NCBI GenBank assembly: GCA_030606565.1
Contig: JAUWGE010000002.1
Location: 100,107-137,781 of the forward strand
Reading direction: 5' to 3'
Origin: Candidatus Bipolaricaulota bacterium
GTDB lineage: Bacteria > Bipolaricaulota > Bipolaricaulia > UBA7950 > UBA9294
DNA length: 37,675 bases
Shown: positions 15,642-27,217 of the stretch, piece by piece
How positions within the stretch are numbered: the first letter of the stretch is position 1
How the letters are laid out: each line of letters opens with the position of its first letter
Notes under the pieces: model-generated
Seen by the model: the letters and a program-made list of their open reading frames with translations, nothing else
The model's database searches: none
What the model was told of the DNA's origin: nothing
Program-made: the position numbers and the translations under genes

Positions 15642-15738
15642 GAACGTCGTAGACCTGTCTACCATTCCGGCACAGGCAGGTAAGCTGCTGCGCTACGTCA
15701 ATCCTGTAGCGTCGGGCTTTATGCCCGACGTTGGTGGA
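15642..15738. repeat. REP-like hairpin repeat, copy A1
   Basis: The repeat starts GAACGTCGTAGACCTGTCTACC, cut here to its first 20 bases by position 15642-15661, passes through GGCACAGGCAGG, and ends with the hairpin GTCGGGC-TTTAT-GCCCGAC at 15712-15730. A copy of the same layout is at 21845-21990. Its right part (15693-15738) is read on the minus strand as the last codons of the DUF134 gene. It lies between the ABC-F stop and the DUF134 stop, so it may also serve as a two-way terminator, though no T-run is present. Confidence 0.75.
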
Positions 15739-16079
15739 GCCTTCCATCGTCCGCGGCCCATCCCCCGACCGTGCCGCCCCGGCCTACGAATCACGACGTG
15801 CTCCGACTCGTGCACGGCGAGAGCTTTTCCGTGCATCACCGCATCAATTACCTTGCGCCGACCAGAGTAAAGCAAGCGCTGGATCGTCCCTCGCGAGATT
15901 CCCATCTCCTGCGCCGCTTGCTCTTGGTCGTGCCCTTCAAAGTCGCACAAGCGCATCGCTTCCAGTTCATCGAGTGCAACCTTGACGATCTCAGTCTGGG
16001 AAAGAGGGATACCGCTCGGCTTGAACAGGTTGTACCCGAAAAACTCCTGACAGTAACGCGGCTTTTTCTGGCGGCCCAT
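15693..16079 (-). CDS. DUF134 (UPF0251) helix-turn-helix DNA-binding protein
   Basis: A 128-residue predicted transcription regulator. The start MGRQKKPRYCQEFFGYNLFKP and KVALDELEAMRLCDFEGHDQE are hallmarks of DUF134, followed by the helix-turn-helix AAQEMGISRGTIQRLLYSGRRKV (key residues EMGISRGTIQR). DUF134 genes are usually next to NifX-like and ferredoxin-MinD genes, as here. The last 12 residues (TSGIKPDATGLT) are encoded by a REP-like repeat and are probably not native. The ATG at 16079 has GAGGAGG four bases upstream. It is transcribed from a near-consensus promoter divergent from the metal-cluster operon and probably controls that operon and itself. Confidence 0.9.
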   Translation of the reverse strand: MGRQKKPRYCQEFFGYNLFKPSGIPLSQTEIVKVALDELEAMRLCDFEGHDQEQAAQEMGISRGTIQRLLYSGRRKVIDAVMHGKALAVHESEHVVIRRPGRHGRGMGRGRWKAPPTSGIKPDATGLT

Positions 16080-16095
16080 CGTCCTCCTCGCAAGA

Positions 16096-16209
16096 GTGCA
16101 TAAGCTTACTATAGAGGGACATTGGAGCGGTTGTCAAGCGGACGAATAGGGATAAACCTCTCTCTTGGCCTGAACGTCGACTGCTTGACAAGTTTTGTGC
16201 ATATGCTTA
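16096..16209. promoter_or_regulatory. Candidate DUF134 operator pair
   Basis: GTGCATAAGCTTA at 16096-16108 and GTGCATATGCTTA at 16197-16209 are the same 13-base word with one difference. The first lies at the -10 and start point of the DUF134 promoter; the second spans the spacer and the -10 of the operon promoter. Each contains an 8-base palindrome (TAAGCTTA and GCATATGC). Their placement fits repression of both promoters by one protein, most simply the DUF134 product. This is inference from position and similarity. Confidence 0.5.
16108..16137 (-). promoter_or_regulatory. Near-consensus sigma-70 promoter of the DUF134 gene
   Basis: Read on the minus strand, TTGACA (16137-16132) is followed after 18 bases by TATAGT (16113-16108). 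The expected start of transcription is near 16101, about 20 bases before the DUF134 ATG. Confidence 0.75.
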
Positions 16210-16213
16210 TAAT
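16185..16213 (+). promoter_or_regulatory. Consensus sigma-70 promoter of the NifX/MinD operon
   Basis: A perfect TTGACA (16185-16190), a 17-base spacer and a perfect TATAAT (16208-16213). This is the strongest promoter visible in the window. Transcription would start near 16220, followed by an AAGGAGG ribosome site and the ATG at 16250. So perfect a promoter in front of an accessory operon suggests strong expression that is held down by a repressor. Confidence 0.85.
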
Positions 16214-16249: not shown

Positions 16250-16558
16250 ATGGGAGGATACGGACATCGAAACATGTACTACGCGACCGGGCTTCCTGGC
16301 TGGGTGCGATTCGGTTACTCCCCCGGATGGGGAGGCCTCCCACCGGCGGCACAATACCTCCAGAATACCGGGCAGACAGGGGCGTTCCTCGCTTCGCTTG
16401 GTTACCCGACTTCAGCCCCAGGGGCATGGCCGGTGCCAGGAACGGCACCCCAATCAAAGGAGCAGGAACTTGCGACGCTCAACGCCCAGAAGGAGGCACT
16501 TGAACGACAAATGGAGGCGGTAAAAAAACGCCTGGAAGAGCTGGAAAAGGAGGCATGA
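16250..16558 (+). CDS. Small protein with aromatic/Gly-rich N-terminus and C-terminal coiled coil (DUF5320-like)
   Basis: A 102-residue protein, first gene of the operon, with an AAGGAGG ribosome site. The N-terminal half is rich in Gly, Tyr and Trp (HRNMYYATGLPGWVRFGYSP). The C-terminal 35 residues are a charged heptad coiled coil (EQELATLNAQKEALERQMEA and on to the end). The same kind of coiled coil ends the products at 16904 and 17582. I recognise it as DUF5320-like by architecture and context only. Possible roles are a scaffold or a metal-cluster carrier; no function is established. The stop overlaps an ATG in ATGA, but the next gene probably starts nine bases later. Confidence 0.75.
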   Translation: MGGYGHRNMYYATGLPGWVRFGYSPGWGGLPPAAQYLQNTGQTGAFLASLGYPTSAPGAWPVPGTAPQSKEQELATLNAQKEALERQMEAVKKRLEELEKEA

Positions 16559-16563
16559 TCGCT

Positions 16564-16812
16564 ATGAGAGGACGCGGCGGAGGTTTTGGCGGCAGAGGCT
16601 ACTTCAGAATGGGTTACGGAATGGGGCTTGGTAGAGGAATTGGTTCCTTCGGTCGAGGGATGGGCCTTGGAATGGGACGAGGATATGCAGGCTGGCTGGG
16701 CAACCCCTATGCTCGGGGTTGGCCCGGGTATGGTATGTCCTATGGCTATCCTTATGGGGGGTACGGATCTAACTACCCATACTCCGGCTATGGCATGGGG
16801 TATCCCTACTAA
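16564..16812 (+). CDS. Gly/Tyr/Arg-rich low-complexity small protein
   Basis: An 82-residue protein made almost only of Gly, Tyr, Met, Arg and Pro: MRGRGGGFGGRGYFRMGYGM at the start and GYGMGYPY at the end. It has RGG-like repeats at the N-terminus and YG(S/Y)-like repeats at the C-terminus. There are no cysteines and no membrane segments. ATG 16564 is ten bases after AGGAGG; an upstream ATG at 16555 overlaps the previous stop but is only one base from that ribosome site. Such composition is typical of disordered, RNA-binding or phase-separating segments elsewhere, but that is analogy. I know no function. Confidence 0.7.
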   Translation: MRGRGGGFGGRGYFRMGYGMGLGRGIGSFGRGMGLGMGRGYAGWLGNPYARGWPGYGMSYGYPYGGYGSNYPYSGYGMGYPY

Positions 16813-16903
16813 CGATCAGGACCTTTTAAAATCGCAAGGATGATACCGCGTCAGGCAGGAAGCGCCCCGTATGTAGCGTTTGAAACAAAAAAGGAGATGT
16901 ATT

Positions 16904-17227
16904 ATGCCAAGATTTGATGGAACAGGACCCCGTGGAATGGGGCCGATGACAGGAGGAGGAAGGGGTTTTTGCAGCCCGTGGGGGTTAGGGACAATGTACG
17001 GCCGTGGAGGGGGGATGCCTTATCCTATGGCCACTCCGTACCGGATGCCATATCCCTCCTACGGGGGGATGCCTTATTCTGGAGCACCGGCGTATGCTCC
17101 AGGAGCTGCCCCCTATGCGCCACAGATGAGTGAAGAACAGGAGCTTCAATTCTTGAAGGAAGAAGCACAGAGGGTAAAGGATCAGCTGGCACAGATCAGT
17201 GGCCGGATAAAGGAATTGGAGACTTGA
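16904..17227 (+). CDS. DUF5320-family protein
   Basis: A 107-residue protein with the recognisable DUF5320 start MPRFDGTGPRGMGPMTGGGR, a Pro/Tyr/Gly-rich middle (YPMATPYRMPYPSYGG) and a C-terminal coiled coil (EEQELQFLKEEAQRVKDQLA to the end). One cysteine follows the N-terminal motif. The family is common next to NifX-like and ferredoxin-MinD genes in anaerobes; its function is unknown. ATG 16904 has AAGGAG seven bases upstream. The frame is open to 16880 without a ribosome site. The N-terminal MPRxDGTGP motif is shared with the zinc-ribbon protein at 21499. Confidence 0.82.
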   Translation: MPRFDGTGPRGMGPMTGGGRGFCSPWGLGTMYGRGGGMPYPMATPYRMPYPSYGGMPYSGAPAYAPGAAPYAPQMSEEQELQFLKEEAQRVKDQLAQISGRIKELET

Positions 17228-17581: not shown

Positions 17582-18175
17582 GTGAAAATTGCTGTAGCCA
17601 CAACACAGGGTGGATTGGAGGATGTTGTCTCTCAAGTCTTCGGCCGCTGCCCTACTTTCACTCTGGTGGATGTTGAGAACGGGAAGGTCGTCTCCCACGA
17701 GGTAGTTCAAAACCCCTATGTCAGCGCGATGGGTGGGGCCGGGATCCAGGCGGCGCAGCTTGTCATCTCCAAGGGTGCACAGGCGATCCTCGCCGGCGCG
17801 TTCGGCCCGAATGCTTCAAACGTCTTTTCCCAGGGGGGTGTGCAAACGATTCCCGCCCAAGGGACTGTGAAAGAAAAAGTCCTCGAGTTTGCTGCGGGAC
17901 GGCTCGCCCCGGCTGCCGGTCCTACCGCGGCGGCGTTCGCGGGTCGGGGCATGGGGACCGGAGGTGGGATGGGAATGGGACGCGGGATGGGAATGGGACG
18001 CGGGATGGGAATGGGACGTGGCATGGGAATGCCTGGCATGCCCATGTCAACTCCGCCGGCTGCCCCGCCTCCATCGATGGAGGCGATGGCCACCTTGACC
18101 GAACAGCTACGCTCACTTACGCTCAAGCTACAACAGCTAAACGAGCGCATCGATGCACTCGAAAGGAAGGAATAA
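17582..18175 (+). CDS. NifX-like protein with GMGMGR repeats and C-terminal coiled coil
   Basis: A 197-residue protein in three parts. Residues 1-115 are a dinitrogenase iron-molybdenum cofactor domain (NifX/NafY fold): MKIAVATTQGGLEDVVSQVF at the start, FGRCPTFTLVDVENG, ILAGAFGPNASNVF. Next comes a Gly/Met/Arg segment with three exact GMGMGR units. The last 40 residues are a coiled coil (TEQLRSLTLKLQQLNERIDA) like that of the DUF5320-type neighbours. Proteins with this domain bind metal-sulfur clusters, as in NifB/NifX and the Mo-Cu orange protein of Desulfovibrio. The GTG start has AAGGAGG six bases upstream. Fusion of the NifX fold to the coiled coil suggests docking to the same partners. 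Confidence 0.87.
   Translation: MKIAVATTQGGLEDVVSQVFGRCPTFTLVDVENGKVVSHEVVQNPYVSAMGGAGIQAAQLVISKGAQAILAGAFGPNASNVFSQGGVQTIPAQGTVKEKVLEFAAGRLAPAAGPTAAAFAGRGMGTGGGMGMGRGMGMGRGMGMGRGMGMPGMPMSTPPAAPPPSMEAMATLTEQLRSLTLKLQQLNERIDALERKE
17966..18019 (+). repeat. Three 18-base tandem repeats inside the NifX-like gene
   Basis: The unit GGGATGGGAATGGGACGC occurs three times without a gap (17966, 17984, 18002; the last differs only at its final base). A partial fourth copy follows. It codes for GMGMGR units and could vary in number by slippage. Confidence 0.9.
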
Positions 18176-18178
18176 GAA

Positions 18179-18541
18179 ATGAGAGTTTGCATCACTTCGG
18201 ATGGACAGGGACTTGACGCGCCGGTCAATCCAAGCTTCGGGCGAGCACCCTATTTTCTATTTGTCGATCCCGAGACACTCACCACAGAAGGCGTGAAAAA
18301 TACTCCCGGTGCCCATGGTGCCGGCGTGCAAGCGGCCCAGACCGTCGTGTCGAAGGGCGCGAACATTGTGATCACCGGGAACGTTGGACCAAACGCCCAT
18401 CAGGGTCTTAGCACAGCTGGGATCGAGATCTATGTCGGAGCAAAGGGCACGGTTAAGGACGCACTTCAAGACTACCGCGCTGGCCGCCTCACCCGCGCCG
18501 ATGCTCCCACAGCAGGGGGGCATGGAAGGAGGATGATATGA
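18179..18541 (+). CDS. NifX-like metal-cluster-binding protein
   Basis: A 120-residue protein consisting mainly of one NifX/NafY-type domain: MRVCITSDGQGLDAPVNPSF, then FGRAPYFLFVDPE, GVQAAQTVVSKGANIVITG and NVGPNAHQGL. The family binds Fe-Mo, Mo-Cu or other metal-sulfur clusters during their assembly or transfer. It starts only three bases after the previous stop and ends in an ATGA overlap with the next gene, so the three NifX-like proteins are made together. It has a single cysteine near the N-terminus, so any cluster would have to be held non-covalently or by other residues. Confidence 0.9.
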   Translation: MRVCITSDGQGLDAPVNPSFGRAPYFLFVDPETLTTEGVKNTPGAHGAGVQAAQTVVSKGANIVITGNVGPNAHQGLSTAGIEIYVGAKGTVKDALQDYRAGRLTRADAPTAGGHGRRMI

Positions 18542-18912
18542 GCAAAGTCTGCGTACCGACCGCGGGAAGCGGTGGCCTAGACGACCTGGTCGGCGAGCAC
18601 TTCGGCCGCGTCCCAACCTACACGATCTATGACTCCGATACCGGTACGGTAGAGGTGGTCGATAATACCTCTGAGCACATGGGCGGAAGAGGACTTCCAG
18701 GCTCAATCCTAGCCAACCTGGGGATCGACGTTCTTTTGTGCAGCGGCCTCGGCCGTCGGGCGATCGGAATCCTAAACCAAAACGGGATCGAAGTCTGCGC
18801 CGGCGTTTCCGGGACAGCACGCGCGGCGATCGAGGCGTGGAAGGGAGGGAGTCTCTCGAAAGCCTCAGATAAAGACGCCTGCCAGAAACACGCGTTCCGC
18901 GATCGCCATTGA
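18538..18912 (+). CDS. NifX-like metal-cluster-binding protein, second short paralogue
   Basis: A 124-residue NifX/NafY-type protein: MSKVCVPTAGSGGLDDLVGE, HFGRVPTYTIYDSDTG, ILANLGIDVLLCSGLGRRAI. It differs from its neighbours in the GPNA-type loop, which here reads LGRRAIGILNQNGIEV, and it has four cysteines, one of them in the core strand LLCSGLG. It overlaps the previous gene by four bases and the next by one (TGATG). The C-terminal DACQKHAFRDRH is polar with Cys and His and might add metal ligands; that is a guess. Confidence 0.88.
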   Translation: MSKVCVPTAGSGGLDDLVGEHFGRVPTYTIYDSDTGTVEVVDNTSEHMGGRGLPGSILANLGIDVLLCSGLGRRAIGILNQNGIEVCAGVSGTARAAIEAWKGGSLSKASDKDACQKHAFRDRH

Positions 18913-19898
18913 TGCGTATCGCCATCGCCAGCGGAAAGGGCGGAACCGGTAAGACGACCATTGCCGTTAACCTGGCTCTCTCCCTTGTCGAACGAGAATC
19001 GGTCCAGTTCATCGACTGTGATGTCGAGGAGCCAAACGCCCACATTTTTTTAAAACCTCGCATTAAGCACGTACATTCGGTGGGAAAGCTCCTTCCAGAG
19101 GTGGATGAATCCCTGTGCAATCAGTGCGGGGAGTGTGCCAAGGCCTGCGAGTTTAACGCCATCGCCGTCATCGGAAAGAAGGTATTGGTCTATAACGAAC
19201 TCTGTCACGGCTGCGGGTTGTGCAAGATGGTCTGCCCAACCGGGGCGATAAGCGAGGTCCCACACGAACTCGGGGTCGTAGAATCAGGGGAAGCACGCGG
19301 ATTTCCCTTCTCTCGCGGGCTACTCAACATCGGCGAGGCTATGGCGACCCCGCTTGTCCACACATTGAAGGAAGGGCTTGATCCTGACCGTCTGGCGATC
19401 CTCGACGCACCGCCGGGGACCGGGTGTCCAACGATCGCTGCACTGCACGGGGCCGATGTCGCGCTGCTGGTCACCGAGCCGACCCCGTTTGGCCTGCACG
19501 ACCTCAAAGCCGCGGTGGGGGTCGCCCGCTCATTGGGCGTACCGATCGCCGTAGTGATCAATCGCAACGGGATCGGTGATGATCAAATAGAGCGCTACTG
19601 CAAACAGGAGGGGCTACCGATCCACTTAAAGATCTCGTTTGACCGTGAGATCGCCGTGCTTTACTCGGAGGGGACCCCACTCGTCGACGCCCTTCCGGCC
19701 TGGAAGGAGCGGTTCATCCACCTCTACCATGAAATCATCTCGCAGGCGGGCGAAGGCGCTGCCTCCGTAGCGTCGGGCTTCATGCCCGACGATCTGAACA
19801 AACGTCGCACACAAGGTGCGACGCTACACGCTGCCGAGGACGTTCCCGCAGTGGACATCGGGCCGAATGAGGGGCCCCAAAAAGGAGAGGCGGGATGA
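18912..19898 (+). CDS. MinD-superfamily P-loop ATPase with inserted ferredoxin domain, first copy
   Basis: A 328-residue ParA/MinD/NifH-type ATPase. The deviant Walker A is SGKGGTGKTT (7-16), and DCDVEEPNAH follows. A 2x[4Fe-4S] ferredoxin domain is inserted, with cysteines 69/72/75/79 and 98/101/104/108. Switch II is APPGTGCP. Such paired ATPases are part of the orange-protein (ORP) system of Desulfovibrio and are thought to load or move metal clusters. The ATG at 18912 overlaps the previous stop (TGATG). The gene carries an odd tail: residues of about 285-307 (SVASGFMPDDLNKRRTQGAT and three more) are the translation of a REP-like repeat at 19767-19827, so the native protein probably ended near residue 280. 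It overlaps the next gene in ATGA. Confidence 0.92.
   Translation: MRIAIASGKGGTGKTTIAVNLALSLVERESVQFIDCDVEEPNAHIFLKPRIKHVHSVGKLLPEVDESLCNQCGECAKACEFNAIAVIGKKVLVYNELCHGCGLCKMVCPTGAISEVPHELGVVESGEARGFPFSRGLLNIGEAMATPLVHTLKEGLDPDRLAILDAPPGTGCPTIAALHGADVALLVTEPTPFGLHDLKAAVGVARSLGVPIAVVINRNGIGDDQIERYCKQEGLPIHLKISFDREIAVLYSEGTPLVDALPAWKERFIHLYHEIISQAGEGAASVASGFMPDDLNKRRTQGATLHAAEDVPAVDIGPNEGPQKGEAG
19767..19827. repeat. REP-like hairpin repeat, copy A2, inside a coding region
   Basis: The ends GTAGCGTCG (19767-19775) and CGACGCTAC (19819-19827) are perfect inverted repeats. Inside are two hairpins: GTCGGGC-TTCAT-GCCCGAC and GTCGCAC-ACAAG-GTGCGAC. The element is 61 bases long and sits in the last tenth of the first MinD-type gene, in frame. 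Confidence 0.85.
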
Positions 19899-20755
19899 AG
19901 AGCGTTCTCTTCCTTTCGGGAAAAGGGGGGACCGGGAAGACCTCCCTCGCCGGGGCGTTCGCCTTCTTGGCGAAGGAGAAGGTCCTCGCCGACTGCGACG
20001 TCGACGCGGCGAACCTACACCTCTTGCTCGATCCAAAGATCACCTCGGAGGGAAACTTTCAAGGAATCAAACTCGCCGTTAAAGACGATGAGAAGTGCAC
20101 CTCCTGTGGCAAGTGCCGCGAGGTCTGCCGCTTTCAGGCAATCGACGAGAACTTTACCATCGATTCCTATATGTGCGAGGGGTGCGGGGCCTGTGCATAC
20201 GTCTGCCCGGTCGATGCGATCACCCTCCTGCTGGTCGATTGCGGGCGCTGGTACACCGCGCAGAGCAGGCTTGGCCCACTTGCGAGCGCCGAGCTCTATC
20301 CAGGAGAGGAGACCTCAGGGAAGCTCGTCTCTCTGGTCAAGGAGAAGGCGGCCGGACTAGCTAAAGAGACAAAAGTAGAAGCCCTGTTGATCGACGGGGC
20401 CCCTGGGATTGGTTGCCCGGTGATCGCCTCGGTGAGGGGGGTAAGTGCGGTCATCCTCGTCACCGAGCCAAGCCTCTCCGGGTTGCACGACTTAAAACGG
20501 ATCCTCGGGGTGGTCCGTCACTTTGGGATTCCGGCCTACCTCGTCATCAACAAGGCTGACATAAACGAGAAAGTTTCAGAAAAGATCGAGGCGTTCGCCG
20601 CGCAGGAGCAGCTCCCGGTGCTCGGACGGATTCCCCATGACCGAAAAGTAACCGAGATGATGGTCGTTGGAAAAAGCGCCGTCGAGGATGCGGAAAGTCC
20701 TGCCGGAGCGGCGATGAGCGTGGTTTTTGAGCGTTTTACGGAGGTCTTTTTATGA
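19895..20755 (+). CDS. MinD-superfamily P-loop ATPase with inserted ferredoxin domain, second copy
   Basis: A 286-residue paralogue of the preceding gene. The Walker A is SGKGGTGKTS (8-17), followed by DCDVDAANLH. The two ferredoxin motifs have cysteines 68/71/74/78 and 94/97/100/104, and switch II is GAPGIGCPV. LLVDCGRWYTAQSRLGPLAS, after the second motif, is characteristic of this family. It has no repeat-derived tail and ends at TEVFL. Both ends overlap neighbours by ATGA, so the two ATPases are probably made in equal amounts and may form a heterodimer, as proposed for ORP-type pairs. A signalling or transport role cannot be excluded. Confidence 0.93.
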   Translation: MKSVLFLSGKGGTGKTSLAGAFAFLAKEKVLADCDVDAANLHLLLDPKITSEGNFQGIKLAVKDDEKCTSCGKCREVCRFQAIDENFTIDSYMCEGCGACAYVCPVDAITLLLVDCGRWYTAQSRLGPLASAELYPGEETSGKLVSLVKEKAAGLAKETKVEALLIDGAPGIGCPVIASVRGVSAVILVTEPSLSGLHDLKRILGVVRHFGIPAYLVINKADINEKVSEKIEAFAAQEQLPVLGRIPHDRKVTEMMVVGKSAVEDAESPAGAAMSVVFERFTEVFL

Positions 20756-21486
20756 TCATTGATGACCTGTTGGCGGAGGCCAGGCCAAAGCTAGCGGACC
20801 TGGTGATCACCGATGTGCGGATCGGCCTGGGATACACCGCTTTATTGCTTGACGATGGGGGCTGTGGCCTTTCAGGGACGGTGAGCGAGGGTGCGCAGGG
20901 TTGCTGCACCCTTCTAGCTCAGGCGGGGGAGCTGATCGGCAAGCCAGCCTTGGAGGTGGCGGAATACGCGGCCTCGTCTGACCCGGTTTCCTCTTCTGTT
21001 GGACTCGCAACGATTAACGCCGTCCTAAACCGGCAGGGAGAATCAGGACAAAGTCCGCTTGAGCTGCTACCGATCGACAACGCACGGGTGGGAATGGTAG
21101 GCTACTTTGAGCCATTCATTCCGGAACTCCGTCGGCGATCGAGTACGTTGTACATCTTCGAGCGGCGGCCCCTCTCCGAGGAGGTTCTTCCCGATTGGTC
21201 GGCCGAGCGGCTCCTCCCTACCTGCGATGTTGCGATCATCACCTCACTAACGCTCGTCAATGATACTCTCGACCATCTGTTAAAACTCGCGCAGGGTGAG
21301 GTCGCCTTGGTCGGACCGACGACACCGCTGTCGCGGGTCTTCGCAAGCCATGGGGTATCGCATCTTTTTGCCACAGTGGTTACCGATCCGCAGAGGATTA
21401 TGACCATAATCAGCCAGGCCGGGGGACCGCAGCGGTTTAAGGATGCGGTGAGAAAAGTCTATCTGCAACTTAAACAAGATAAATAA
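20752..21486 (+). CDS. DUF364-domain protein (putative heavy-metal chelation)
   Basis: A 244-residue protein of the DUF4213/DUF364 type. The N-terminal half shows DVRIGLGYTALLLDDGGCGL and EVAEYAASSDPVSSSVGLATINAVL. The C-terminal Rossmann-like DUF364 half has NARVGMVGYFEPFIPELRRR, CDVAIITSLTLVNDTLDHLL and GPTTPLSRVF. The fold of a homologue suggested chelation of a metal or metal-bearing cofactor, but no activity is proven to my knowledge. The gene overlaps the second MinD ATPase by ATGA and is thus the last of a coupled set of six genes. Confidence 0.88.
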   Translation: MIIDDLLAEARPKLADLVITDVRIGLGYTALLLDDGGCGLSGTVSEGAQGCCTLLAQAGELIGKPALEVAEYAASSDPVSSSVGLATINAVLNRQGESGQSPLELLPIDNARVGMVGYFEPFIPELRRRSSTLYIFERRPLSEEVLPDWSAERLLPTCDVAIITSLTLVNDTLDHLLKLAQGEVALVGPTTPLSRVFASHGVSHLFATVVTDPQRIMTIISQAGGPQRFKDAVRKVYLQLKQDK

Positions 21487-22108: not shown

Positions 22109-22960
22109 ATGAAGGTTTACCTCGATTGTATCCCCTGTTTCATGCGGCAAGCGCTTGCAGCGGCAAGGCAAGCAACAGAGGATAAAAAGCAGCAGCGCGA
22201 GGTATTAGACACGGTTGCGTCACTCATCCCCACTCTGCCGCTTGACGCTACCCCGGTCGATATGGGAAGGAAGATCCACAGGGTAGTTAAAGAGGTTACC
22301 AGGACTCTTGATCCCTATCGGGAGATAAAGAGACAATGTAACGATCACGCTCTTAAACTTAGTTCTCAATTTCGCAAACGCGTAGACGCGTCCTGCGATC
22401 CACTGCTTGCCGCGCTCAAGCTTGCGGCAGCGAGCAACGTTATCGACTTTGCGGTAACTTTGGACTTTGACCTCAATCGCTCGATTGAGGAGAGCTTGAC
22501 GAATGACCTCGACCTGGTCGACTACTCCTTTTTGAAGGAGCGGCTCGAATCCGTCAAAGAGGTCCTCTATATCGGCGACAATGCGGGGGAGATCGTCTTT
22601 GACAGGATCGTCGTTGAGCAGTTGAACAAACTAGGAAAGAAGATCACTTTCGTCGTGCGGAGAGAGCCGATCATCAACGATGTAACGATCGAGGATGCTT
22701 CCTATGTGGGAATGGATAAGATTGCAAAAGTTATCACCAGCGGGTCTGACGCACCGGGGACGAGCCTCCGTTACTGCACGGAGGAGTTCATCGACACCTT
22801 TAACCATTCAAAGTTAATCCTCGCCAAAGGACAGGGGAACTTCGAGGGATTGTCCGATGAGGACGCGCCGCTATTCTTCCTCCTTAAGGTGAAGTGTCCG
22901 GTGGTCGCACGCGAGCTCAACACTACGCTAGGGAAGATCGTTCTTCGTGCAGGTGAATAG
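22109..22960 (+). CDS. DUF89 (ARMT1-like/damage-control phosphatase-like) protein
   Basis: A 283-residue protein of the DUF89 family, whose members are metal-dependent phosphatases acting on damaged or surplus phosphometabolites. It has the N-terminal DCIPCFMRQALAAAR typical of the bacterial/archaeal subgroup I, the metal-site strand VLYIGDNAGEIVFDR, and LILAKGQGNFEGLSDED. Its substrate is unknown. It opens a tightly packed set that runs to 28528, with gaps of 12 bases or less. The ribosome site is a modest GGAGG seven bases before the ATG. Cysteines near the start (C8, C11) could bind metal. Confidence 0.9.
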   Translation: MKVYLDCIPCFMRQALAAARQATEDKKQQREVLDTVASLIPTLPLDATPVDMGRKIHRVVKEVTRTLDPYREIKRQCNDHALKLSSQFRKRVDASCDPLLAALKLAAASNVIDFAVTLDFDLNRSIEESLTNDLDLVDYSFLKERLESVKEVLYIGDNAGEIVFDRIVVEQLNKLGKKITFVVRREPIINDVTIEDASYVGMDKIAKVITSGSDAPGTSLRYCTEEFIDTFNHSKLILAKGQGNFEGLSDEDAPLFFLLKVKCPVVARELNTTLGKIVLRAGE

Positions 22961-23620
22961 ATGATCAAAGAAAACGTGAAGAAAATCCTGAGCGAGATCC
23001 CTTCAGATATCGCGCTTGTCGCCGCAGCGAAGACGCGGAACCCACAGGAGATCCTACGAGCGATCGAGGCCGGAGTCACAATCATCGGGGAGAATTACGT
23101 TAAAGAAGCGCAAAGCGCATTCGCCGTCATTGGCAACCGCTGTCGGTGGCACTTTATCGGCCACCTGCAGCGAAACAAAGTCAAGGTTGCTGTTGAGATC
23201 TTCGATCTGATCGAGACCGTGGATTCACTCCCTCTGGCAGTTGAGATCGACAAGCGTTGCTCCCGAATCGGGAAGGTCATGCCGGTGTTGATCGAGATAA
23301 ACAGCGGCCGCGAGCCGCAGAAGACGGGCGTCTTCCCTGAAGAGGCGGAGGGGCTGATCAAAGAGATTACCCCGCTAAAACATATGCGGATCATGGGATT
23401 GATGACGATGGGCCCAAGGTTCGGTGACCCCGAGAAGGCACGGCCCTACTTCGTGGAGACAAGACGGCTGTTCGAGGAGGTACAGGATCTGGAACTTCCC
23501 GGTCTTGAGATGAAGGTTCTCTCTATGGGGATGTCAAACACCTATAAAATAGCGATCGAAGAAGGGGCAACCATCGTGCGCGTGGGCACAAAGCTATTCG
23601 GAGAGAGGGACTATACATGA
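22961..23620 (+). CDS. YggS/PLPBP-family pyridoxal-phosphate homeostasis protein
   Basis: A 219-residue PLP-binding TIM-barrel protein without known catalysis, needed for B6 and amino-acid balance in other bacteria. The PLP lysine is K24 in LVAAAKTR; GENYVKEAQ, WHFIGHLQRNKVK, MGLMTMGP and LSMGMSNTYKIAIEEGATIV are all family motifs. Its ATG directly follows the DUF89 stop, and its own stop overlaps the Mrp start in ATGA. In the SxDxxxAI motif the usual Asp is Asn (SNTYKIAI), a variation of unknown effect. The sequence fits the expected length. Confidence 0.94.
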   Translation: MIKENVKKILSEIPSDIALVAAAKTRNPQEILRAIEAGVTIIGENYVKEAQSAFAVIGNRCRWHFIGHLQRNKVKVAVEIFDLIETVDSLPLAVEIDKRCSRIGKVMPVLIEINSGREPQKTGVFPEEAEGLIKEITPLKHMRIMGLMTMGPRFGDPEKARPYFVETRRLFEEVQDLELPGLEMKVLSMGMSNTYKIAIEEGATIVRVGTKLFGERDYT

Positions 23621-24450
23621 ATCAGCAGGAACAGATAAAAAAGCAGATGGAGAAGACCGCGCAAGGGATTAAGCAGGCGATGGGCCAGATCAAGAATCGC
23701 GTGGTCGTGTTCAGCGGCAAGGGCGGCGTCGGGAAGACGACCGTGGCGGTGAACCTCGCCTATGCGTTGGCGAACAATGGAGCGCGAGTAGGCCTGCTCG
23801 ACGCTGATATCACCGGACCGAACGTCCCGCAGATGGTGGGGATCACCGAGACGGCACAGGCCGAGGCGGGGAGGATGATCCCCCACGTGGTACAAGGGAT
23901 CAAGGTGATCTCTTTAGCCTCGATCGTACCAGCCGGAACCCCGGTCATCTGGCGCGGACCGCTGCGCTCCAAGGCGATCGATCAATTCCTCGGGGAGGCG
24001 AGATGGGGAGCCCTTGACTTCTTAATCGCCGATCTTCCCCCGGGTACAGGAGATGAGGTACTGACGATCACACAACGCACTTCTCCACAGATGGCAATCA
24101 TTGTCACCACCCCGCAGGAGGTCGCCCTGATCGACGCCCGTCGAGCCACGAACCTGGCAAAGAAGATGGAAATCGAGAGGATCGGGATTGTGGAGAACAT
24201 GTCCGGCCTCATCTGCCCACACTGTGGAGGGGTGATCGACCTCTTCGGCGCGGGTGGCGGCGAACGGGAAGCAAAGAAGCTTTCTCTGCTCTTTCTCGGA
24301 AAGATCCCCATCGATCCTAGTGTGCGGGTGGAGGCGGACGCGGGGCGGCCGATCGTCCTTGCGAACCCTGAAGCTACAGTCTCACAGGCATTTTTCGCCA
24401 TCGCCACGCAGATCGAACGCGCCCTTAAAGACGCCCCCAAGGAGGAGTGA
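23617..24450 (+). CDS. Mrp/NBP35-family iron-sulfur cluster carrier ATPase
   Basis: A 277-residue ParA-like ATPase of the ApbC/Mrp/Nbp35 type that carries and transfers [4Fe-4S] clusters. The deviant Walker A SGKGGVGKTT is at 33-42; DADITGPNVPQMVG and LIADLPPGTGDEVLT follow. The bridging cluster motif CPHC is at 200-203. There is no N-terminal MIP18 (DUF59) domain; instead there are about 27 residues rich in Gln and Lys. Mrp is also part of the Desulfovibrio ORP gene set. Overlaps of ATGA at the start and TGATG at the end tie it to its neighbours. Confidence 0.95.
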   Translation: MNQQEQIKKQMEKTAQGIKQAMGQIKNRVVVFSGKGGVGKTTVAVNLAYALANNGARVGLLDADITGPNVPQMVGITETAQAEAGRMIPHVVQGIKVISLASIVPAGTPVIWRGPLRSKAIDQFLGEARWGALDFLIADLPPGTGDEVLTITQRTSPQMAIIVTTPQEVALIDARRATNLAKKMEIERIGIVENMSGLICPHCGGVIDLFGAGGGEREAKKLSLLFLGKIPIDPSVRVEADAGRPIVLANPEATVSQAFFAIATQIERALKDAPKEE

Positions 24451-24932
24451 TGAAGGTCGGGATCATGGCCGACAGTCACGATAACATGCCGATGATCGCC
24501 CGCGCGGTCGAACTGTTCAACGAGGAGAAAGTGGAACTGGTCCTCCACGCTGGCGATTTCATCTCCCCGATCACCGCAAATGAGTTTAAAAAACTCAAAG
24601 CGCCCCTTATCGGCATCTTTGGAAATAACGACGGGGACAGGCTTTATCTCACCGAATGCTTCCGCGATATTGGGGAACTTTATCCGGATTTCCATGAGTT
24701 CGAGATCGACAGCGACCGCTTCGTGATCATGCACGAGCCAAAATTTATCGACGCCCTGATCAAAAGCCGACATTACGACCTCGTGGTCTACGGGCATACC
24801 CATAACATCGACATCCGGGAAGGGAAGCCTTTGATCATCAACCCCGGAGAGTGCGGCGGCTGGCTCACCGGTCGGGCGACCGTAGTGATCCTGGATACTG
24901 AGACCATGCAACCCCGTCTCATCGATCTCTAA
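24450..24932 (+). CDS. YfcE/MJ0936-type metallophosphodiesterase
   Basis: A 160-residue calcineurin-like phosphoesterase. The metal ligands are visible in IMADSHDN, LHAGDF, GNNDGD, MHEP and YGHTHN, all in family order and spacing. YfcE-like enzymes hydrolyse phosphodiesters using Mn or similar metals; the natural substrate is generally unknown. ATG 24450 overlaps the Mrp stop and has AAGGAGG seven bases upstream. The GTG at 24447 lies within that region and is less likely. A long open frame on the opposite strand covers this gene and the end of Mrp but shows no family resemblance. Confidence 0.93.
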   Translation: MKVGIMADSHDNMPMIARAVELFNEEKVELVLHAGDFISPITANEFKKLKAPLIGIFGNNDGDRLYLTECFRDIGELYPDFHEFEIDSDRFVIMHEPKFIDALIKSRHYDLVVYGHTHNIDIREGKPLIINPGECGGWLTGRATVVILDTETMQPRLIDL

Positions 24933-24944
24933 AGGAGAAACGAG

Positions 24945-25904
24945 ATGAACATCGTCTATGGGCCGGTGCCATCGCGGCGCCTGGGCATGTCCCTTGGAAT
25001 CGATCCGATCCCTAAGCTCACTTGTACCTTCGACTGCGTCTACTGTCAGCTCGGCAAAAAGCGCCATAAGGTACGGGGTCCAGAGGAGGTGAAAGAGCCG
25101 TTTCCCACCCCACAGGAGATCACCGCCGGGGTGGAGGCAGCCCTTGCGGAACATTCCCACGTTGACTACATCACCTTTTCCGGCTCTGGTGAACCGACGC
25201 TGAACCCGAGACTCAAGGAAGCGGTGGAAGAGATCCGCAGATTTACCAAAGCCCCTATTGCCTTAATTACTAATTCATCCCTTCTCACCCGCCCCGCCGT
25301 TCTGGACGCGGCAGCAAGCTTTGATCTTGTCTTACCCTCACTCGATGCTGGCGATCAGGAAACGTTCCTGCGGATCAACCGACCTTCACCTGGTTTTTCT
25401 ATCGATGAGATCGCAAAAGCGATCGAAAAGCTTGCCCGACGCGTTCCAATCTGGCTTGAGGTGATGCTCGTTAAATCAGAAAAGTTACGGACGAACATCG
25501 ACCCTGATTCTATAGGCCACATCATAGAGAAGATCAGGCTCATTCGTCCGCACGAGGTGAACCTGAACACCTGTGTGCGTCCACCGGAAGAACCGGTAGA
25601 CCCCGTCCCCGAAGAAACGTTGCTTAAGATCCGCGAGCGGATGGAAGGTGAGCTTTCAGGGATCCCGATCTTAGTCGTTCCCCAGCGGACGGCTTCGCGC
25701 TCGAGGCTCTTGCGCGAGGATGAACTGAAAGAAGAGATCCTAAAGACACTCAACGTTCGGCCGTGTACCCCTGTTGATCTCTCCGATGCGTTGGGGATCA
25801 ACCCGGCTGAGGTGGGAAAGTACCTGGCGCGGCTCGCTGAGGAGGGAAAAATCGACCGCCGCGTTCAAGCAGGCCAGCTATACTACACATTCAAGGGGGA
25901 ATAA
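24945..25904 (+). CDS. Radical SAM protein with C-terminal winged helix
   Basis: A 319-residue radical SAM enzyme. The cluster motif CTFDCVYCQLG (CxxxCxxC) is at about residues 28-38, preceded by GPVPSRRLGMSLGID, a hallmark of the COG0731-like family. TFSGSGEPTLNP and LITNSSLL are the SAM-binding strands. After about residue 245, a helical domain (LNVRPCTPVDLSDALGINPA, VGKYLARLAEEGKIDRR) looks like a winged helix. The family's reactions are mostly unknown. The ribosome site AAAGGAG lies 12 bases after the phosphodiesterase stop. Context suggests a role with the metal-cluster genes, not proven. Confidence 0.9.
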   Translation: MNIVYGPVPSRRLGMSLGIDPIPKLTCTFDCVYCQLGKKRHKVRGPEEVKEPFPTPQEITAGVEAALAEHSHVDYITFSGSGEPTLNPRLKEAVEEIRRFTKAPIALITNSSLLTRPAVLDAAASFDLVLPSLDAGDQETFLRINRPSPGFSIDEIAKAIEKLARRVPIWLEVMLVKSEKLRTNIDPDSIGHIIEKIRLIRPHEVNLNTCVRPPEEPVDPVPEETLLKIRERMEGELSGIPILVVPQRTASRSRLLREDELKEEILKTLNVRPCTPVDLSDALGINPAEVGKYLARLAEEGKIDRRVQAGQLYYTFKGE

Positions 25905-25906
25905 GA

Positions 25907-26614
25907 GTGGGGCGGATCCTGGTCATCTACGATAATCGGACAACAAGGGAAGATCTTACTCCGGGATGGGGTTTCTCCGCGTTCATCGAGCTTCCCGAGA
26001 GGAGGATTTTGTTTGACACCGGGGCAAATGGAAGGACCCTCCTCACCAATATGGAGCGGCTCAAGCTCGACCCAGCAACCATCGATACGGTCTTCCTCTC
26101 CCACCCTCACGGTGACCACACAGGGGGATTGGAGGGCCTACTTCGAGTTAACCCGCGGTTGACGATCTACCTCGGCCGCTCGTTCTCCTGGGGATTCAAG
26201 AAAGCCCTCGAGCGCTCAGGTACAGAACCTGTCGAAATAACCGGGGCGAAACAACTGTTTGACGGCGTCTATACCACCGGTGAACTGGGGGCCGTGCTCA
26301 AGGAGCAAAGCCTCATCATCGAGACGAAAAAGGGCCTTTTTGTCACTACAGGCTGCGCTCACCCCGGGATTGTGAGGATAGCAAAGGCCGCGGCGGAGCA
26401 GTTGAATAAAAAGATCGACCTTCTCCTCGGTGGTTTCCACTTAGGTGGCACCCGTCAAGCTAAGATTTATTCGATTATTGACTCTCTACAGAAGCTTGGA
26501 GTAAGCAGAGTCGGGCCTTGCCACTGCACCGGCGATGGGGCAATCGAGCTTTTCAAAAGGGCCTACAAGGAGGATTTTATCGAGGTGGGAGTCGGTTCAA
26601 GGATCGAGTTTTAA
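25907..26614 (+). CDS. Metallo-beta-lactamase-fold protein (COG1237-like), first copy
   Basis: A 235-residue MBL-fold hydrolase. The dinuclear metal site is visible as SHPHGDHTGG, TGCAHPG and the closing GGFHL; the start MGRILVIYDNRTTREDLTPG, with GWGFSAFIE, is typical of COG1237. Some family members have been assigned to the dihydropterin-ribofuranosylaminobenzene phosphate synthase step of methanopterin synthesis, but annotation of this family is loose. The start is GTG 25907, two bases after the previous stop. It is paralogous to the gene at 27219, and the two flank an unknown secreted protein. Confidence 0.9.
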   Translation: MGRILVIYDNRTTREDLTPGWGFSAFIELPERRILFDTGANGRTLLTNMERLKLDPATIDTVFLSHPHGDHTGGLEGLLRVNPRLTIYLGRSFSWGFKKALERSGTEPVEITGAKQLFDGVYTTGELGAVLKEQSLIIETKKGLFVTTGCAHPGIVRIAKAAAEQLNKKIDLLLGGFHLGGTRQAKIYSIIDSLQKLGVSRVGPCHCTGDGAIELFKRAYKEDFIEVGVGSRIEF

Positions 26615-26626
26615 AGGAGGTGTAAG

Positions 26627-27217
26627 ATGAGTCGGCATTGTTTGGCTTTGGTTATCTTGCTAGGGGGACTCCTTACCTTCAGCCTGATTGCGTTCACTGC
26701 TAGGGAGCGCGTCATCACCGTCACGGTGGAGGAAGTGGCCCTGTGCTACTGCGAGGAGGTTTTATGGGACGAGGAGGGGTTTACCCACGAGTACAAGGAG
26801 TATACCTCGGATAAGCGAGGGTACGTGACGGATCTGGCGGCGGCAACTGCGACCGGCTGGGAGAGCTACGGAGTGACGGTCGGGGAGTGGCAGCTTTCCT
26901 TCCGGGAAAACTACAACCTGGAAACTGACAAGGCTACCTATAGCACCCTTCTTGAGTGTCTTGTAAAAGGAGCGGTGAGTAAGAGGCAGACAAACTATAC
27001 CGCCCGCTTCCAGTGGCTGCTCACCCGCTTGGGCCTTGACTTCATCGACGACCGGTTTACCCCTTCAAAGACTGGGCTCTCCTGGAGGGGGGAACTGAAC
27101 GGTATCCCCACTACCATTATGGTAAAGGCGCCCACACAGGAGGCTGACTACGCGGCCTGGCATCATCCCAATGGCCACTGCCACGCCCACGTGTGGTGGA
27201 CTAAAAAGGGAGGATAG
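26627..27217 (+). CDS. Secreted or membrane-anchored protein of unknown function
   Basis: I do not recognise this 196-residue protein. It starts with a short charged stretch and a hydrophobic segment (LALVILLGGLLTFSLIAFTA, about 6-25), which would be a signal peptide or anchor. The rest is hydrophilic, with two neighbouring cysteines in LCYCEEVLW and an aromatic, His-rich end (WHHPNGHCHAHVWW) that could bind a metal. The ribosome site AAAGGAGG is strong. It lies between two paralogous MBL-fold genes with gaps of 12 bases and 1 base, so it is surely co-transcribed with them. Confidence 0.8.
   Translation: MSRHCLALVILLGGLLTFSLIAFTARERVITVTVEEVALCYCEEVLWDEEGFTHEYKEYTSDKRGYVTDLAAATATGWESYGVTVGEWQLSFRENYNLETDKATYSTLLECLVKGAVSKRQTNYTARFQWLLTRLGLDFIDDRFTPSKTGLSWRGELNGIPTTIMVKAPTQEADYAAWHHPNGHCHAHVWWTKKGG

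Follow-up and report, generated by a model that had tools for sequence, protein, structure and literature searches.

The window, a 37,675-nucleotide stretch of a Candidatus Bipolaricaulota genome, contains a gene for a 128-residue DUF134/UPF0251 protein (15693-16079, − strand; PF02001 at 73.7 bits, curated cut-off 27) and, divergent from it on the + strand, an operon encoding DUF5320 proteins, three NifX-like proteins, two MinD-type/ferredoxin ATPases and a DUF4213/DUF364 protein. The first gene of this putatively controlled operon encodes a DUF5320 protein (16250-16558; PF17253 at 27.6 bits, cut-off 27); it is followed by a gene for a small Gly/Tyr-rich protein without any Pfam match (16555-16812), which may resemble glycine-rich proteins that store metal or sulfide, and by another DUF5320 gene (16880-17227; PF17253 at 55.3 bits). 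The three NifX-like (Nitro_FeMo-Co, PF02579) proteins are encoded at 17582-18175 (68.1 bits, with an additional DUF5320 match), 18179-18541 (80.3 bits) and 18538-18912 (71.6 bits). Two MinD/ParA-type ATPases with a 4Fe-4S ferredoxin insert follow (18909-19898, matching Fer4, ParA and CbiA; 19895-20755, matching Fer4, CbiA and ParA), and then a DUF4213/DUF364 putative heavy-metal chelation protein (20752-21486; PF04016 at 129.8 bits). Tightly spaced genes farther downstream (22109-27217) encode an ARMT1-like phosphatase, an alanine racemase N-terminal domain protein, a NUBPL/Mrp ATPase, a metallophosphatase, a radical SAM protein with an ArsR-type HTH and a protein of the metallo-beta-lactamase fold; these genes are perhaps on the same transcript as the operon.

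The 170-bp region between the DUF134 gene and the operon contains the same 13-base word twice, as the earlier note had reported: GTGCATAAGCTTA at 16096-16108 and GTGCATATGCTTA at 16197-16209 match with 0 mismatches in the same (+) orientation. These were the sole two exact matches in a scan of the 1.81-Mb genome, which returned three more with one mismatch. Two matches with up to two mismatches were present in the window (shuffle mean 0.40), and only one of 400 dinucleotide-shuffled versions of the intergenic region contained a pair of 13-mers differing at no more than one base. Both flanking promoters are near consensus, as had been claimed. The operon promoter combines a −35 TTGACA (16185-16190, + strand) with a −10 TATAAT (16208-16213, + strand) over a 17-bp spacer, a perfect sigma70 consensus, and the DUF134 promoter combines TTGACA (16132-16137, − strand) with TATAGT (16108-16113, − strand) over an 18-bp spacer.

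The 13-base word lies within a 20-bp palindrome whose consensus is TTATGAGCATATGCTCATAA, and a palindromic operator explains why parallel words are found at divergent promoters. The palindrome on the operon promoter, O1 (16193-16212), holds the word at 16197-16209 and covers the spacer and the −10; that at the DUF134 promoter, O2 (16092-16111), holds the word at 16096-16108 and covers the end of the −10 and the start site. The proposed overlap of the words with the −10 regions is thus largely a property of the palindromes, which extend into them by 5 bp (operon) and 4 bp (DUF134), whereas the 13-mers themselves reach in by only 2 and 1 bp. A matrix trained on other lineages only (described below) placed its two best matches in the window's DUF134 upstream region exactly at O1 and O2. 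Since O1 scored 21.7 bits and O2 3.1 bits with this matrix, O1 is the canonical copy and O2 a weak one, and a reading of the two as equal sites was ruled out by the same scores.

To follow the palindrome beyond the window, DUF134 genes were gathered from the 100 nearest genomes, 55 of which had a match, and from four further groups, namely the phyla of genomes labelled uncultured bacterium, Omnitrophota, Coprothermobacterota and Gammaproteobacteria; eight gammaproteobacterial plasmids were added to the last of these. After removal of 12 of the 171 ORFs (six partial or without a start, five with short upstream regions, one with its N-terminus missing), 159 usable loci were reduced to 116 non-redundant ones at 0.90 similarity, 84 outside and 32 inside the window's class. 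With no motif given, the top enriched 8-mer upstream of the 116 genes was GCATATGC, present in 48 loci against an expected 0.53; the highest count reached by any 8-mer across 30 shuffle sets of these upstream regions was 15. Outside the window's lineage, the same 8-mer occurred in 35 of 84 loci (expected 0.47), and a palindromic matrix grown from it on these 84 loci yielded TTATGAGCATATGCTCATAA with 20.2 bits. The 32 loci from the window's class had been held out, and with this matrix 26 of them scored above the 99% level of shuffled upstream regions. In the reverse training, the matrix from the 32 loci recovered 46 of the 84 above its own 99% level, as expected if operator variants differ by lineage. 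A site of at least 12 bits was located within 250 nt upstream of DUF134 in 98 of the 116 loci; 18 had no such site in that interval, and L059, L064 and L067 had no 12-bit site anywhere in the fetched stretch.

In scans of whole genomes, the strict pattern TTATNNGCATANGCNCA was found at 24 sites in 23 of the 100 relatives and the reversed control at none; by manual comparison of coordinates, the site adjoins the DUF134 gene in 20 of the 23 genomes, and the pattern was present in 22 of 55 genomes with a DUF134 match versus 1 of 45 without. Conservation upstream of related genes, the check that the earlier note had put forward, was therefore obtained for the operon-side site; for the DUF134-side copy it was seen in four loci only (L001, L032, L031 and L023). 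The DUF134 loci, 433,745 bases in all, contain 74 sites of at least 18 bits, and 71 of these lie within 300 nt upstream of DUF134. One of the others is about 45 bp upstream of a NifX-like gene in L176, one heads a thioesterase-NifX-DUF134 gene run (L114; names from translations), and the third is in L093. In genomes G019 and G030 the DUF134 upstream region is without a site and a strict-pattern site is located on another contig; that of G019 precedes a NifX-NifX-MinD/Fer4 operon with the TTGACA/TATAAT promoter layout of the window. The G081 site is beside MinD-ferredoxin and Mrp-type genes, whose identity was read from the translations. A chance origin of the words and sites was rejected on genome copy number, shuffles, 8-mer enrichment, the reversed control and site placement.

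The weaker copy requires separate consideration. That only O1 is an operator and O2 a chance or vestigial half-match, with no autoregulation in this genome, is a minority reading to which we give limited but real weight: the O2 score exceeds the 95% shuffle threshold and falls short of the 99% threshold (4.8 bits). Against it, the position directly behind TATAGT is kept in L032, L031 and L023, the palindrome is better in L031 and L023, the 13-mer pair is rare among shuffles, and other lineages have a site on DUF134's own promoter.

Across the family, the operator coincides with sigma70-like −10 elements in 74 of the 98 loci with a site (shuffled flanks: mean 12.7, maximum 21), which makes steric repression the likeliest outcome. 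In 52 of the 98 the −10 is directed toward DUF134, placing an operator on the regulator's own promoter family-wide, although this feature is weak in the window itself. DUF134 bound at O1 would sit on the −10 and spacer of the perfect-consensus operon promoter, and bound more weakly at O2 it would occupy its own start site, providing autoregulation; RNA polymerase would be shut out and the DUF5320/NifX/MinD-ferredoxin operon repressed. It is improbable that DUF134 binds the palindrome and instead activates, or acts as a dual regulator. A sigma-4-like fold, for which most fold matches are sigma region 4 chains, could in principle recruit polymerase, but the sites coincide with −10 boxes and start sites and are not upstream of the −35, and the operon promoter of the window is already a perfect consensus.

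The assignment of DUF134 to a sigma70-region-4-like HTH is based on Pfam, on structural comparison and on the position of the recognition helix. The window protein exceeds the cut-offs of two region 4 profiles (Sigma70_r4_2, 32.2 against 25.7; r4, 25.4 against 24.1). Its model (mean pLDDT 87.4, from a 58-row alignment) contains HTH helices at residues 52-59 and 63-83, with the recognition helix starting at R63. The best structural rows for the model (VIA) are mostly sigma region 4 at Z about 7; a Foldseek search of the PDB with the same model returned nothing with an E value of 0.001 or lower. The 128-residue chain has no profile match to region 2, which provides core binding and −10 melting in sigma factors, nor any match to a sugar-phosphate-binding C-terminal Pfam domain of the SorC/DeoR type, so that it belongs to neither family. 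By profile, the closest solved HTH is the DNA-binding domain of DeoR (7bhy; E 6.9e-7 over DUF134 residues 39-76), a protein that we take to be of Bacillus origin and to carry a sugar-binding effector domain. Its ISRPTVSR helix is like those of some DUF134s; the DeoR chain has 318 residues (8r7y) versus 128 for the window DUF134. Sigma70 region 4 on the −35 element (1ku7, 2h27) has in common with DUF134 the fold and the location of the residues for specificity, where the recognition helix begins. It differs in that DUF134 is without region 2 and has a palindromic site.

Co-variation between protein and operator was used to relate the site to DUF134 itself. In the 98 of 116 loci with at least 12 bits, both half-sites were counted and 95 protein columns were scanned by mutual information, with permutation within five lineage groups only. 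The best of the 95 columns for half-site positions p8, p5, p6 and p7 were residues 63, 68, 64 and 64, respectively; at p7, residue 95 ties residue 64 in excess with a lower z. Residues 63, 64 and 68 are all located in the recognition helix of the model and are presumably equivalent to sigma70 R584/E585/Q589. Most of the underlying counts are not independent events, because few independent co-changes occurred on the tree, and they read as follows: R63 with C at p8 (142 C, 2 T), Q63 with T (50 of 50) and S63 with one of each; R68 with G or A at p5 (131 G, 24 A, 1 T), N68 with T (35 T, 1 G) and L68 with T (4 of 4); and G64 with at least one T at p6 in 25 of 25 sites, as opposed to 1 of 73 for other residues at 64. 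Such pairings, Arg reading G:C and Gln or Asn reading A:T, are classical in protein-DNA recognition.

In a tree built without the recognition helix, residue 63 and p8 each change four times. Independent pairs on well-supported branches agreed in nearly all pairings (2 of 2 for 63/p8, 1 of 1 for 68/p5 and 3 of 3 for 64/p6), and with 2, 1 and 3 pairs the phylogenetic sign test was below significance. For a fourth combination, Pro or Ser at residue 64 with A at p7, the two pairs on the tree mostly showed no difference between their members. The rules were then fixed and 60 further DUF134 loci were fetched, 52 from the Omnitrophota-labelled phylum and eight from the phylum of L050. These loci are partly related to the training loci. 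A site of at least 12 bits was present in 52 of the 60, and in these 52 the rules were obeyed in 51 (R63/Q63), 49 (R68/N68) and 52 (G64) cases; several of the eight below the cut still have palindromes, with another core. The code implied would be that residues 63, 64 and 68 set half-site positions 8, 6 and 5, R63 selecting C and Q63 T, G64 selecting T at p6, and R68 selecting G or A and N68 T.

Through this co-variation with its recognition helix, the site is linked to DUF134 itself. In principle the palindrome could be the site of some other, unlinked regulator found together with these operons, as the binding of DUF134 to it is a prediction; this is very improbable, however, given that three DUF134 helix residues come out on top among the 95 columns for their respective bases, that helix residues predicted the bases in 60 loci outside the rule derivation, and that only one of the 45 relatives without a DUF134 match contains the strict pattern, versus 22 of the 55 with one. 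We conclude that the words are very probably parts of DUF134 operators, as the earlier note had supposed, through which a palindrome-reading DUF134 would repress the operon and its own gene; held-out conservation, placement of the strict pattern beside DUF134 and co-variation with the helix residues all argue for this. DUF134 is predicted to bind TTATGAGCATATGCTCATAA and its lineage variants, probably as a dimer.

Several observations connect DUF134 with NifX-type proteins. All seven scanned DUF134 proteins of 216-254 residues (L050, L100, L103, L108, L115, L157 and L158) are fusions with a Nitro_FeMo-Co (PF02579-type, NifX) domain C-terminal to DUF134, possibly a one-protein version of regulator plus sensor. 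In seven of the eight plasmid loci a NifX-type gene directly follows DUF134; in the eighth, from Salinivibrio, a toxin-antitoxin pair separates the two and the NifX gene has its own two sites. These fusions and plasmid adjacencies point to a NifX-type metal-cluster protein as the likeliest effector, and release of DUF134 probably depends on such a protein, itself a product of the operon. Only 78 of the 116 loci had a NifX gene in the fetched stretch, and only 5 of 28 in the Omnitrophota-labelled group, where targets may therefore differ. The wider proposal that DUF134 is a widespread metal-cluster-responsive repressor family, with TTATGAGCATATGCTCATAA-type operators, a three-residue code and a NifX switch either fused or operon-encoded, seems to us about evenly balanced. 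If it is true, a bound thiometallate or Fe-S cluster would set the expression of the cluster-handling operon. DUF134 matches were also present on 187 plasmid records, including those of Klebsiella, Citrobacter and E. coli. In the plasmid loci L204-L210, from enterobacterial and Aeromonas-family hosts, DUF134 and NifX are often accompanied by genes for a PaaI thioesterase, a SLAC1 channel, Dps or an FAD oxidoreductase, and GCATATGC-type sites are located upstream, paired in most of these loci.

An autoregulating repressor with a palindromic operator is a known kind of system. The DUF134 operator, the residue-to-base code and the tie to NifX appear to be new: in agreement with the earlier statement that DUF134 targets are not defined, no published DUF134 operator or target was found in the open-licence PMC papers searched. 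A close parallel is EnfR (TON_1525), a Tfx-type archaeal repressor described, in the passages available, as a sigma70-region-4-like HTH protein without a sigma factor role that acts as a dimer on a pseudo-palindromic site over the promoter and represses an anaerobic metalloenzyme cluster (PMC10570040), properties resembling those proposed for DUF134 and its target. Its structure, 8hno, is among the structural matches of the DUF134 model (Z 6.5), aligned solely over the 8hno HTH (model residues 31-83). EnfR differs in its 36-bp AT-rich site and probably in its C-terminal domain, which has an 'eighth note' fold, and a NifX partner is not mentioned in those passages (PMC10570040). The orp operons of Desulfovibrio vulgaris, according to the portion of the MrpORP paper available (PMC6345978), contain NifX-type and Mrp/MinD ATPase genes as in the window; they are controlled by sigma54 and a cognate regulator (Fievet 2011, by title), versus a sigma70-like promoter and putative DUF134 operator here. 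Many genome annotations list DUF134 as a protein of unknown function. A conserved operator together with a residue-to-base code would make its regulon predictable from sequence, and would connect an entire family of regulators with the NifX/orange-protein/MinD-ferredoxin clusters, which are poorly understood.

Operator variants were also observed in other parts of the family. The Omnitrophota-labelled loci L117-L143, with SQQTFSR helices and mostly no NifX gene nearby, have GAGTATATACTC-type operators, and GCGTTAAA often follows a short distance downstream. A subclass with [IV]HRST helices (L266, L268, L293 and L289) is accompanied by the palindrome TGCACATATGTGCA or a near version of it, and DUF134s with [RK]STAGR helices (L278 and L281) by TTATGGGAATAATCCCATAA-like palindromes.
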